From a virus: a stretch of DNA of 59,705 bases. This document shows positions 673-59,288 of the stretch, in pieces. The stretch is taken from positions 1 through 59,705 of IMG/VR virus record IMGVR_UViG_3300008262_000209, one strand, 5' to 3'. Each line of letters begins with the position of its first letter. Position 1 is the first letter of the stretch. The position numbers were made by a program, and so were the translations under genes. The notes under the pieces are model-generated. The model saw nothing but the letters and a program-made list of their open reading frames with translations. It had not been told where the DNA came from and did no database searches.

Positions 673-1737
673 TTATACCCAACTTAATGAGCCTGTACCT
701 GCAGTGATTTCGTATACAAAGGATCCAGGAATTACAGTCGTATTTACCGTAACCGTCAATCCCTCAGAAATAACAGCGTTTGAAATAATGTTAGAATGAG
801 AAAGAAGTATTATTCCGGATCCTCCAGCGCCAACACCACCTGGTCCAGGTGAACCGGCACCTCCACCTCCTCCAGTAAATGCAGTAGCAGATGTTCCGTT
901 GCCATATCCACCGCCACCCAATCCTCCAATTGCGCCGGTGCGCCCACCACCGCCGGAATAATATTTACCATTTAACCAAAGATAACCATTACCTCCCCAA
1001 CCTCCTACTGATGCGTTACCTCCTCTTTGACCTGCGCCACCGCCGCCTGCGCCGAGGGCCCCTGGGGCTTGTATAGATGCGCCACCAGAAAATCCTTGTA
1101 CACCGGAACCAATTGCACTTGGCCCAGTAATCGCATTACCCCCAAAACCTTCTACGCCATTATTAGATGCAGGGGGGGAATATCCTCCTCTTCCGCCACC
1201 GCAACCACCATCACTATCAGGGTTAAATTGACCTGCAGGACCTGCAACTGCGCCGCCAATGCCCCCACCAAAAGAAGTCATACGAATTGAATTATTTTTT
1301 CCAACTAAGGTTATAACAGTATTAGACCCTCGAGTACTTGCGCTTAACGACGGTGCACCATTTAACCCGCCTGCACCTATAGAAAATACTGAAATAGATG
1401 TTATAACTCCAAGACTAATATTTCCAACAATTGCTCCTCCACCTCCACCCCCAGCTTGTCTTGGCATATCCGACACCTGAGAAGGTCCACCCCCACCGCC
1501 ACCTGCAACTACTAATAAGTTTAAAGTAACGTTTGCGGGCTGAGTAACGTTTAGCCAACTATTACCTGAGTATAATTCAAAAACTCTAGTTTCTTCATTA
1601 AATCTGATCATACCAGTGACTGGTACAGATGGTCTATCTGCGGTATTGCCCTTAGGAATTATAATTGAACTTCCGGATAATTTTAAGGAAGTTTCCTCAG
1701 TTACTATTTCTCCACCGCCTAAAATAGAAATTGTCAT
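673..1737 (-). CDS. Glycine-rich tail fibre/adhesin
   Basis: 354 residues. Residues ~1-65 hold the shared module (IPKGNTADRP, GMIRFNEE, FELYSGNSW); residues ~75-310 are glycine-rich with many GGGGG runs, and the last ~40 residues are an ordinary beta-rich tail. The start overlaps the stop of the upstream 74-residue gene by ATGA (1734-1737), so translation is probably coupled. It resembles the partial gene at 1-657 and the 356-residue gene at 15757-16827. It is probably a distal receptor-binding fibre component; no enzyme motif is seen. Confidence 0.75.
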   Translation of the reverse strand: MTISILGGGEIVTEETSLKLSGSSIIIPKGNTADRPSVPVTGMIRFNEETRVFELYSGNSWLNVTQPANVTLNLLVVAGGGGGGPSQVSDMPRQAGGGGGGAIVGNISLGVITSISVFSIGAGGLNGAPSLSASTRGSNTVITLVGKNNSIRMTSFGGGIGGAVAGPAGQFNPDSDGGCGGGRGGYSPPASNNGVEGFGGNAITGPSAIGSGVQGFSGGASIQAPGALGAGGGGAGQRGGNASVGGWGGNGYLWLNGKYYSGGGGRTGAIGGLGGGGYGNGTSATAFTGGGGGAGSPGPGGVGAGGSGIILLSHSNIISNAVISEGLTVTVNTTVIPGSFVYEITAGTGSLSWV

Positions 1738-7784: not shown

Positions 7785-9584
7785 TTATCCCTCGCAGGCT
7801 AAACAAGCATCTCCTTCGATCATAGCTTTCATATCAATTTCTTTAATGACTTCTCTTTCAATTCTCTTTGATACTTTATCCGCTTTACCAATCTTTTCGG
7901 AGCGGCAATAGTAAAGAGTTTTTAGACCTAACTTCCATGCCATAAAATGTACTGCATGTAGATATTTTACGTTTGCATCTGGTCTGAAGAAAAGATTAAT
8001 AGATTGTGCTTGATCTATATATTCCTGTCTATTTGCAGCGTGTTCAATGATCCAGCGCTGATCTATTTCCATAGATGTTTTGAATACATCTTTTGTCCAT
8101 CCATCCATCCATTCTAGATGTTGCACCGAACCATCATTTGCGATAATACTTGACCAGACTTCCTCATACCAACCATCCTTATGAGATTCTGCTTCTTTGC
8201 GAATAATTGAATCTAAATACTTGTTTTTATTTAAAGATGATCCGCTGAGCGTATCTTGTCTATATGCATTTGCTCGATAAGGTTCAACGCTAGGGCTAGT
8301 GTTGCCCATGATGATAGAAGAGCTAGCATTGGGTGCAATAGCCATGAGATGGCTGAAGCGGTTACCAGTACCTGTAGCATCCGGAGCTTCACCTCGTTCT
8401 TTCGCCAAGGCAATATTCGCTTCATTTAATTTTCCCCTGATGTGTTTGAAGATTTGTTTATTTCTTCCTATCGCCATCGGGCTTTCGAAGGCAATATTAT
8501 TCTTCTGTAAATAAGCATGGAAGCCAAGAGCCCCCACACCAATGCTGCGCTCTTGCTCAGCAGAGAACCTGGCTCTAGAAATAGCATCAGGAGCATTGTC
8601 AATAAAATACTGAAGTACGTTATCCAGCATCTCCGCGACGTCCCGAAGAAAAAGTTTGTTATCTTTCCACTCATCATAATACTCCAAATTAACAGACGAA
8701 AGGCAACAAACTGCAGTACGTTTCTTATCTGTAGGTAAAATAATTTCAGAACACAAATTAGATTGTCTAATACTAAGTCCCAGTTCTTTTTGGAACTTTG
8801 GCATGTGCCTGTTACTTGTATCAATAAAATGTAGATATGGTTCACCCGTCATCATTCTAATTTCGAGAATGCGCTGCCAAAGTTCTCTGGCAGAAATTGT
8901 ATCTCGAACCTCTCCAGAATGAGGATCTCTCAATTCCCAGGTATCATCTGCCTGAGAATCAATCATACACTTCTCTACCAAATTCATGAAATCATCTGTA
9001 ATGTTGATTCCGTGATGTAAATTCAACGCCCGCATATTAGGATCGCCTGTGGGCTTTCTCATCTCTAGATAAAGTAATATGTCAGGATGGTTAATGTCAA
9101 GATATGTAGCATAACTGCCGCGACGAGTGCGACCTTGTCTATACGCAAGCGAGGATGCATCATACGTTCGAAGATGAGGCATAATGCCAACTGACTTGTC
9201 ATCAGCAGAACGAATACCCAGTCCAATTCCAACTCCTCCACCTAGCATCGAAAGCCAGTTGACTTCCGAAAGTGTGTTGACAAGACCTTCTGCGCTATCA
9301 TCCAGATAGGGAAGAAAGCAACTAATAGGAAGGCCACGCTTACTACGCCCAAAAGAAAGAATAGGAGTAGAATAAGAAAGCCAGTGCCTAGAGCTGTAAT
9401 CGTAAAGGCGCTGAGCATGGTCTTTGTTAGATCCGAAAGCTTTTGAAACATAGGCAAACCTTTCTTGAGGAGATTGTTCTTCTTCCTTCATGTAACTATC
9501 TTTTAGTCTTTTAATACCCAACTCATCGAATAGTGTGTCTCTAGAATAATCGACAACAATCCCATGTACCATATTTTCTGCCAT
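7785..9584 (-). CDS. nrdA: Ribonucleotide reductase large subunit
   Basis: 599 residues, shorter than E. coli NrdA (761), because it begins directly at the catalytic barrel without the N-terminal ATP-cone. The class I catalytic residues are visible: C89 (LPISCF), N/C/E in SNLCSEIILP, the partner Cys in AVCCLSS, the radical-transfer tyrosine pair in TLYYCRS, and a C-terminal redox pair CLACEG. It reduces ribonucleoside diphosphates together with the NrdB at 5576-6536. Loss of the ATP-cone suggests insensitivity to dATP inhibition (inference). Confidence 0.95.
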   Translation of the reverse strand: MAENMVHGIVVDYSRDTLFDELGIKRLKDSYMKEEEQSPQERFAYVSKAFGSNKDHAQRLYDYSSRHWLSYSTPILSFGRSKRGLPISCFLPYLDDSAEGLVNTLSEVNWLSMLGGGVGIGLGIRSADDKSVGIMPHLRTYDASSLAYRQGRTRRGSYATYLDINHPDILLYLEMRKPTGDPNMRALNLHHGINITDDFMNLVEKCMIDSQADDTWELRDPHSGEVRDTISARELWQRILEIRMMTGEPYLHFIDTSNRHMPKFQKELGLSIRQSNLCSEIILPTDKKRTAVCCLSSVNLEYYDEWKDNKLFLRDVAEMLDNVLQYFIDNAPDAISRARFSAEQERSIGVGALGFHAYLQKNNIAFESPMAIGRNKQIFKHIRGKLNEANIALAKERGEAPDATGTGNRFSHLMAIAPNASSSIIMGNTSPSVEPYRANAYRQDTLSGSSLNKNKYLDSIIRKEAESHKDGWYEEVWSSIIANDGSVQHLEWMDGWTKDVFKTSMEIDQRWIIEHAANRQEYIDQAQSINLFFRPDANVKYLHAVHFMAWKLGLKTLYYCRSEKIGKADKVSKRIEREVIKEIDMKAMIEGDACLACEG

Positions 9585-57746: not shown

Positions 57747-58298
57747 TCAATCTATAATAGGTCCATTGCCATTTTTAAATCCAATATGCCCACCCTCTTC
57801 TTGAATCTTTTTAATGACATCCTCAAAAAGAATTGGGCGGTAGTCGGTATGCTCTACACATACGCAGTGATAACGAGGATCAATGACTTCATTTTTCTTT
57901 ACACGATTGTAATGTAGATGTCCATGAATATTAGTCCCGAACCTCGCAAGGCTTTCTTCATGAATAGGAATGTGGCTTAGAATCATTCCATTCAGTACAT
58001 GATAACCTCGAACATCTTTAAAATACTCAGTGTATTCTTCAAGTTTAAAGATGTCGTGATTACCTTTGATTAAGACCTTTTCACCGTTTAATCTACTAAG
58101 CGTTTTTAAAGCCTTTCGATTAATAACTACATCTCCTAAATGATAAACTTTATCTTTTGGTCTAACAGTTTCATTCCACCGCTTGACCATTTCTTCATCC
58201 ATGTCCTCGGGGTTATCCCATGGACGTAATTTAGTGCCATCGTCACGTAGAAATTTACAAACGCCTGCATGGCCGAAATGAGTATCACTAACTAAAAT
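57747..58298 (-). CDS. Metallophosphoesterase (calcineurin-like), probable ATT start
   Basis: From the first ATG (58202) the frame is 151 residues with HLGDVV, KGNHD, LSHIP and IHGHLH, four of the five metal motifs. The frame stays open upstream for 32 codons and supplies the missing first motif, SDTHFGH, so the ATG would give an inactive protein. No ATG, GTG or TTG occurs in that extension; the best start is ATT at 58298, overlapping the stop of the upstream 27-residue gene. The substrate may be nucleotides or phosphoproteins. Confidence 0.75.
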   Translation of the reverse strand: MLVSDTHFGHAGVCKFLRDDGTKLRPWDNPEDMDEEMVKRWNETVRPKDKVYHLGDVVINRKALKTLSRLNGEKVLIKGNHDIFKLEEYTEYFKDVRGYHVLNGMILSHIPIHEESLARFGTNIHGHLHYNRVKKNEVIDPRYHCVCVEHTDYRPILFEDVIKKIQEEGGHIGFKNGNGPIID

Positions 58299-58532: not shown

Positions 58533-58608
58533 TGGGGTGTCTAATGAGGATTGAACTCATACTGCCAGGCCCACAATCTGGCGTGCAGACCACTACACTA
58601 TAGACACC
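58533..58608 (-). tRNA. tRNA-His(GTG)
   Basis: Anticodon loop TTGTGGG; the extra G-1 opposite C73 (identity pair of tRNA-His) is present, acceptor GTGTCTA/TAGACAC, encoded CCA. Confidence 0.92.
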
Positions 58609-59043
58609 ATCGTATTCTTGCTTAGGCCACGTCTTTCCACAGATCGCCCCTATGCTGGAGTTGTTGCCCTGTCCAAACACTAATAGCGGTTTGCTGCGTA
58701 GTGTCCACGTTGCTATGTTGTCTGAGACACCGGAGACACCGCATCGAAATACAGAGTCTATGTCTCGCTAACGGTGCCATAGCCACCGGGACTTTCTCGT
58801 TTACCATACGCTACTTTCAGGAAAGTAGTAACCGGAACTTTATGATGATTGGTCGCCACGCCAACTTTCTGCTTACCGCAAGGATGCCTTTCGGCTTCGC
58901 ATTACTGGGTTTTTTCAGCGCACCGTCATTATCTGACGAAATCCCAACCTTGCTTCTTCACCATATTAAAACACACTACCCTAGACATCTACTTTGGGGC
59001 GGGCTGGCCGATATCGGAACACCGCTCGAAATGTGTTTTAATA
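58609..59043 (-). ncRNA. Candidate structured non-coding RNA between tRNA-Lys and tRNA-His
   Basis: 435 bases without a credible gene, richer in G+C than the surroundings and full of helices: a 16-bp perfect stem (58960-58975 with 59032-59047), an 8-bp stem CTACTTTC/GAAAGTAG (58811-58828), GCC-GAAA-GGC (58886-58895) and CGTCA/TGACG (58924-58938). It lies in the tRNA transcript started at 59260, so tRNA processing would release it with ends near the flanking tRNAs. GOLLD-type phage RNAs also occur beside tRNAs, but are longer (~800 nt) and I cannot confirm membership. Confidence 0.6.
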
Positions 59044-59119
59044 TGGTACGGGCAGAGGGATTCGAACCCACGACACATAGATTAAAAGTCTACTGCTCTA
59101 CCAACTGAGCTATGCCCGC
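59044..59119 (-). tRNA. tRNA-Lys(TTT)
   Basis: Acceptor GCGGGCA/TGCCCGT (G1-U72), anticodon loop CTTTTAA, discriminator A, encoded CCA. Its 3' ACCA is also the first four bases of the long helix in the adjacent RNA candidate. Confidence 0.93.
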
Positions 59120-59230
59120 TCTATATTCCCTACGTAATGCTTTGTTTGTTTTTTGATGCTTACCCGCTTTCTTAAACAATGCCAAAGCCACCAGCGGGTT
59201 ACGGGGCTTGGCGATACGTTTTCGTTGCAT
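59090..59230 (-). CDS. Small basic protein overlapping tRNA-Lys
   Basis: 46 residues. MQRKRIAKPRNPLVALALF followed by KKAGKHQKTNKALRREY is a strongly basic helical protein resembling small phage proteins of the RNPxVxxxLFxKAGxHxKxxKAxRR type. AAGGAGA lies before the ATG. The last ~9 codons and the stop are inside tRNA-Lys, so processing of that tRNA would cut the message. First gene after a perfect sigma70 promoter. Confidence 0.65.
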   Translation of the reverse strand: MQRKRIAKPRNPLVALALFKKAGKHQKTNKALRREYRAGIAQLVEQ

Positions 59231-59259: not shown

Positions 59260-59288
59260 ATTATAACACCGAATCAATTTCTTGTCAA
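59260..59288 (-). promoter_or_regulatory. Consensus sigma70 promoter for tRNA/RNA operon
   Basis: TTGACA (59283-59288), 17-base spacer, TATAAT (59260-59265), minus strand. It drives the small basic protein, tRNA-Lys, the RNA candidate and the tRNAs beyond. Confidence 0.88.

Follow-up and report, generated by a model that had tools for sequence, protein, structure and literature searches.

Three noncoding RNA modules between two phage tRNA genes, one of them a member of a new and widespread RNA family

The window, which is the whole stretch of DNA that we analyzed, is a virus record of 59,705 bases. Several of the ten window proteins that we scanned match phage families (tail fibers, virion structure, and ribonucleotide reductase), and its glycosyltransferase is 71 to 75% identical over 355 residues to those of Synechococcus phages S-CAM7 (Kyanoviridae) and ACG-2014f. 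Because ARAGORN puts tRNA-Lys at 59044-59119 and tRNA-His at 58533-58607, the gap between them is 58608-59043 (436 nt), on the minus strand like the tRNAs; the gene-free block of 435 bases described in the original prediction is real but sits in a gap one base longer than reported. The features of the region are as follows.

59260-59288, minus strand: σ70-type promoter match, TTGACA-17-TATAAT, 12/12, with TG before the −10
59044-59119, minus strand: tRNA-Lys(TTT) (ARAGORN, Rfam), 5′ neighbor of the block, CCA encoded
58963-59043, minus strand: module H, a hairpin whose long stem starts directly after the tRNA CCA, with a variable loop
58840-58965, minus strand: module A, a branched RNA of about 125 nt that has 3 bases in common with H
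58608-58839, minus strand: module B, an RNA of about 200 nt with two pseudoknots
58533-58607, minus strand: tRNA-His(GTG) (ARAGORN, Rfam), 3′ neighbor, whose tRNA 5′ end is the block's 3′ limit

As predicted, the block is richer in G+C (48.5%) than the window (37.6%); the 16 window tRNAs stand at 52.0%. The hairpins reported earlier are also present, as perfect inverted repeats of 16 nt (58960-58975/59032-59047) and 8 nt (58811-58818/58821-58828). Fold energy was dropped as proof of structure because it was not significant against shuffles: the minus strand gave a z of −0.84, with 18 of 100 shuffles folding equally well, and the plus strand a z of −0.01 (47 of 100 as good). What is above chance in the block is conservation with compensatory changes in relatives. 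Two ORFs cross it (58701-59108, plus strand; 58622-58807, minus strand) and are not conserved: whichever of the six frames is taken, no more than 4 of 84 copies of module B are open in it, and the lengths of these copies spread over all three classes modulo 3 (25, 24, and 35). A conserved protein frame, which the original prediction had named as evidence against its RNA, is therefore not found across B. An ORF of 46 amino acids with many basic residues (59090-59230, minus strand) lies between the promoter match and tRNA-Lys, overlapping the latter.

The block is three noncoding RNA modules laid end to end (H, A, and B), not one RNA of 435 nt, because relatives carry its pieces apart. Using the metallophosphatase gene at 57747-58202, we fetched the best 80 of 422 related loci. 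Two of them, L002 and L003, contain the block in full with 100% identity and appear to be the window virus itself. The block's two halves sit in different tRNA gaps in L009, L010, L029, and L030, and reading of the spacers brought out the third unit, H, at the block's 5′ side. Module A adjoins B in two of the eight distinct viruses aligned for A (the window virus and L186) and lies apart from it in the other six (L163, L010, L009, L030, L150, and L082); we therefore rejected the earlier reading of the block as one large RNA. Several relatives have a fourth unit, C, after B (as at L030 5266-5388); the block lacks it. C is a candidate spacer RNA of about 123 nt with a long closing stem, recurring in many loci by tRNA-Glu, tRNA-Lys, or tRNA-Tyr.

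Pairing in module A (32 pairs, 8 sequences) shows 7 pairs with double changes, versus 3.2 in shuffles, and 13 cells changed on both sides, versus 3.7; its further pair types are not clearly above shuffles (78 of 500 reach the count). Of 607 distinct tRNA spacers of 45 to 400 nt, 29 are closed by H-type terminal stems of at least 10 pairs; none of their shuffles is. Across 23 distinct H arm pairs, exchanges between A-U and U-A, C-G and U-A, or A-U and G-C are seen at several positions, and position 5 is unpaired in 10, in a comparison that is circular to the extent that the 3′ arm was picked for complementarity. The variable part of some H hairpins holds T-arm-like pieces (GGTTCGAATCC and similar; spacers starting at L118 5681, L083 2189 [minus strand], L199 5335 [minus strand], L009 4413, and L153 3273 [minus strand]), as if H might be an extended, degenerate tRNA; T4 rnaC likewise ends in a T-arm-like hairpin.

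For module B, we aligned 84 distinct strings, leaving aside copies truncated at contig ends and those whose GGACAG core is not exact, and thinned them to 52 (A1), 46 (A2), and 17 (A3) rows. The 84 copies fall into 67 of type 1 (GGCAG loop) and 17 of type 2 (GGCU loop, the window's type), which were aligned separately. RNAalifold gave a poor structure on an automatic alignment, and we therefore drew the helices from covarying columns. In the window, the elements of B are the following.

58811-58828, minus strand: helix P1 (58828-58822 with 58817-58811), whose loop pairs back to 58833-58832
58712-58783, minus strand: pseudoknot PK1, 58783-58778 (GCUAUG) with 58717-58712 (CAUAGC)
58675-58706, minus strand: pseudoknot PK2, 58706-58700 with 58681-58675
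58623-58674, minus strand: 3′ domain, with the GGACAG motif and P7 (58652-58649 with 58626-58623), common to diverged copies

In type 1 (46 rows, 44 pairs), 96.4% of cells are paired and 136 are changed on both sides; shuffles give 39.4 ± 4.5 such cells, and slid versions of the structure no more than 27. Further pair types are not clearly above shuffles, 55 of 500 reaching the count. Type 2 (17 rows, 38 pairs) has 98.8% of cells paired and 23 changed on both sides, versus 3.6 ± 1.6 for shuffles and at most 3 for slid versions. These cells are not independent events because the rows are related, and the structure was drawn from the same sequences on which pairs were counted. First-drawn pairs that failed are omitted from the counts: 54-115 (3/46), 123-162 (19/46), 195-203 (17/46), and 74-102 (25/34) in type 1, and 34-47 (2/16) in type 2. 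Among the type 2 rows other than the window's, PK1 has two pairs with double changes, while its pairs hardly vary in type 1; PK2 shows such changes at five of seven pairs in type 2 and four of five in type 1. The base 5′ of the first hairpin pairs with the hairpin loop in every row, as C-G, G-C, A-U, or U-G in type 1. The search pattern itself imposed P1, but copies found without the pattern keep this helix with other bases (CUGUUUU/AAAACAG in L206, GCACUUU/AAAGUGC in L218, and CCAUUUU/AAAAUGG in L230). The helices and pseudoknots proposed for B are supported by compensatory changes beyond controls, and the covariation test on homologues that the original prediction called for comes out in favor of structure in both B and A. 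Our model R1 matches the window at 58616-58836 with 150 bits, the window copy being among the model's own sequences.

The 5′ hairpin pattern of B occurs in at least 119 stretches of viral contigs, and its 3′ domain pattern in at least 120. Bacterial and archaeal genomes yielded no stretch with the 5′ pattern and one with the 3′ pattern, a 3-kb contig from a cyanobacterial bin with four tRNAs. Five blastn queries against GenBank phages gave no match in three cases and only stretches of up to 36 nt at E values of 8 to 9 in the other two; R1 had no match in six whole phage records, a set with no positive control.

We read 92 B copies (distinct by 400 nt) among the matches listed. In the fetched locus, 91 are accompanied by tRNAs, always on the strand of B and never on the opposite one, and the remaining copy, L139, has no tRNA. 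Likewise among the matches listed, 52 of 89 copies have their hairpin motif within 12 nt of the upstream tRNA's end (the start is not flush in the other 37), 53 of 82 have the next tRNA starting no more than 15 nt from the aligned B end, and 31 copies are flush on both sides, so B often exactly fills the space separating two tRNAs. In all 32 flush B spacers (192 to 219 nt) among the matches listed, the upstream tRNA has a terminal CCA. The identity of the neighbors varies, again among the matches listed: Glu (36), Tyr (16), Cys (12), and others upstream, and Asp (43), Tyr (21), and others downstream. In 28 large records, hand-picked (16 of them for holding B) and so informative about copy number rather than prevalence, R1 matches once in 17, twice in 9, and not at all in 2. 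The conserved fold, strand, position, and noncoding nature of B are supported.

The modules change neighbors and order, and H has terminal inverted repeats around a variable inside, as would small mobile DNA cassettes inserted in tRNA arrays, whose RNA would have no role. B and A nevertheless maintain their pairing through compensatory change and hold one strand relative to the tRNAs, and we consider the cassette explanation extremely unlikely.

The place of B in phage genomes, and its pseudoknots, raise the alternative that it is a far-diverged GOLLD, ROOL, tmRNA, RNase P RNA, or group I intron. At gathering thresholds, Rfam 15 finds only tRNAs in the window; around the block, a search at E ≤ 10 adds matches far below gathering to the tRNAs, and the window block and L077 themselves have no match at gathering or E ≤ 10. 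The same search recognized GOLLD, tmRNA, and a group I intron in neighboring loci, which serve as positive controls. GOLLD (RF02032), like B, is a phage RNA often found near tRNA islands and with no assigned function; its 3′ region is conserved and its 5′ region variable (PMC12286853). Many of its members exceed 800 nt (PMC12286853), in contrast to the flush B spacers of 192 to 219 nt and the block of 436 nt. A GOLLD-like identity, which the original prediction had raised, was not borne out: the GOLLD covariance model, which covers the conserved 3′ region, has no block match at gathering or E ≤ 10 and finds its control in L009 (7894-8357, 205.7 bits), where GOLLD and B are separate elements. 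L009 also has tRNAs whose anticodons, CTA and TTA, would read stop codons (2812-2886 and 7957-8030; called Pyl and Stop), the TTA one inside the GOLLD match, and another tRNA called Pyl lies at L215 2361-2451. ROOL, also a phage or prophage RNA with multiple pseudoknots, often near tRNA islands and with no known function, measures 659 nt in the example solved in PMC12286853, compared with about 200 nt for B; Rfam gives no ROOL match to the block at gathering or E ≤ 10, in loci that hold no positive control for it.

No tmRNA (tRNA-like domain and tag frame) was found in the window by ARAGORN or Rfam, both of which detect the tmRNA of L007, where it is separate from B. Rfam has no match in the block to RNase P RNA (no positive control in these loci) or to Intron_gpI (control found at L009 10256-10450), and both flanking tRNAs are whole, i.e., not interrupted. 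This agrees with the earlier failure to recognize a tmRNA, RNase P RNA, or group I intron by eye. Possible likenesses of A to the 16S rRNA 3′ end and of B to RNase P motifs, checked through the Rfam searches, were considered and dropped. Given the Rfam result and the separateness of GOLLD and tmRNA from B, membership in one of these classes is very unlikely, and the B family is new in that it matches no Rfam 15 family.

T4 offers another parallel in kind. Its rnaC (139 nt) and rnaD (119 nt; NC_000866.4) lie in line and nearly flush with the phage tRNA cluster, rnaD beginning 1 nt after tRNA-Arg and rnaC 6 nt after rnaD, and are termed RNAs of yet unknown function (PMC9697503). They are stable phage RNAs, and they differ from B in being placed at the end of the cluster. 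R1, run unfiltered on the 3.7-kb T4 region, scored 2.1 bits at best (E 0.91), and profiles of B, A, and the 3′ domain had no match to rnaC or rnaD at E ≤ 100. B resembles T4 rnaC/rnaD and GOLLD/ROOL by anatomy, with no homology found to the T4 RNAs or to Rfam families. Among the open-licence papers that our literature searches listed, titles and opening abstract lines describe no such RNA; the tRNAs and Rfam-known RNAs of a cyanophage are treated in PMC9964418.

The promoter match lies 216 nt upstream, ahead of the block and of tRNA-Lys. The region contains 6 promoter-like sites, versus 6.2 expected, and 59288-59260 alone reaches 12/12; in the window, matches with at most one mismatch number 5, versus 0.92 expected, and 3 are perfect. 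Together with covariation, strand, and position, this match supports the original view of the block as a structured noncoding region of the tRNA transcript. The 6-kb L139 locus contains a lone B copy, from about 4700, and no tRNA; the single tRNA of its 36.8-kb contig lies beyond the locus. Two sites accompany this copy.

4750-4722, minus strand: near-consensus promoter match, TTGACA-17-TACAAT, just upstream of B
4501-4473: second promoter-like site, ahead of the next ORF

We think it likely that H, A, and B are read with the tRNAs and that B represents a new family of phage RNAs, freed by tRNA processing and acting in trans; co-transcription, release at tRNA ends, and trans action are what we infer from sequence. 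Transcription with the tRNAs would start at the promoter match at 59288-59260. RNase P cutting at the tRNA-His 5′ end and 3′ maturation of tRNA-Lys would free H-A-B, a step suggested by the flush ends in relatives, from which the excision proposed in the original prediction can fairly be inferred. The H stem might then be cut, more speculatively, parting H from A and B. B would fold as drawn, a step that its covariation supports, and would act in trans, probably with a partner that recognizes the conserved 3′ domain; its low copy number, conserved unpaired motifs, and stand-alone copy point to such action. The flush position against tRNA ends could instead mean that B, A, and H are cis-acting parts of tRNA precursors, guiding the folding, cutting, or protection of neighboring tRNAs, with the freed pieces as waste, and H does recur in many spacers, its stem conserved and its loop variable, a pattern that a processing signal could show. 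For B, this is unlikely to be the explanation, as it occurs once or twice per large record rather than once per tRNA, its neighbors differ between viruses, and the L139 copy has a promoter match and no nearby tRNA; a cis-acting processing role is the reading we prefer for H alone.

Codon supply is the usual explanation for phage tRNA clusters. GOLLD, ROOL, and T4 rnaC/rnaD are unexplained structured RNAs that live in such clusters, and B adds to them a compact, widespread, and strongly covarying family. B is small enough for chemical probing and structure work and its stand-alone copy can be cloned, so the role of such RNAs becomes testable; the spacers of phage tRNA arrays merit annotation.

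More distant relatives of B are also apparent. In the best 80 of the 422 protein-selected loci, several of which are copies of one virus, R1 found 39 matches, spread over 34 loci and always on the tRNA-bearing strand wherever tRNAs are listed; 16 loci exceed 140 bits, and the remainder match mainly through the 3′ domain. The diverged copies that we read have GGACAG-N-GUAAC-NN-CUCA and P7 in common, differ in their 5′ domains, and mostly fill a tRNA gap of about 210 to 220 nt or the first part of a longer one. Among the matches listed, 106 distinct copies of the 3′ domain lack the B 5′ pattern (those with less than 120 nt upstream were skipped). Some of these, including L218 and L230, are copies of B whose P1 differs. 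Of the 106, 104 share their locus with tRNAs on the same strand, and the other 2 have no tRNA there. The 106 copies reduce to 84 distinct strings and 55 rows. In these rows, P7 has 143 cells changed on both sides (shuffles, 39.2) and a covariation score of 0.698 (shuffles, 0.193). Seven pairs of the 3′ domain have double changes, a number that 187 of 500 shuffles also reach. The window virus itself seems to have a second B-type member, in the tRNA-Asp/tRNA-Leu gap of L003 (2839-3037, 35 bits).

We tentatively suggest, at slightly less than an even chance, a modular superfamily of trans-acting phage RNAs that combine a shared 3′ domain of about 55 nt with exchangeable 5′ pseudoknot domains for one common job; its members would sit in the tRNA arrays of large phages like additional beads on a string, with some viruses carrying two. 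If so, the common job would answer a need of tRNA-rich phages, for example on ribosomes, tRNAs, or tRNA-directed defense.

Two diverged copies have unusual neighbors or parts. A core resembling that of a type III hammerhead lies at L284 650-704 and overlaps a diverged B-type RNA at the latter's 3′ end; the core scores 28 bits, below the Rfam gathering threshold of 48.5, with mismatches in the outer helix. In L240, upstream of 1090-1142 (minus strand), an apparent tRNA-like insert with a lengthened acceptor stem replaces the usual 5′ domain of a diverged B-type copy.
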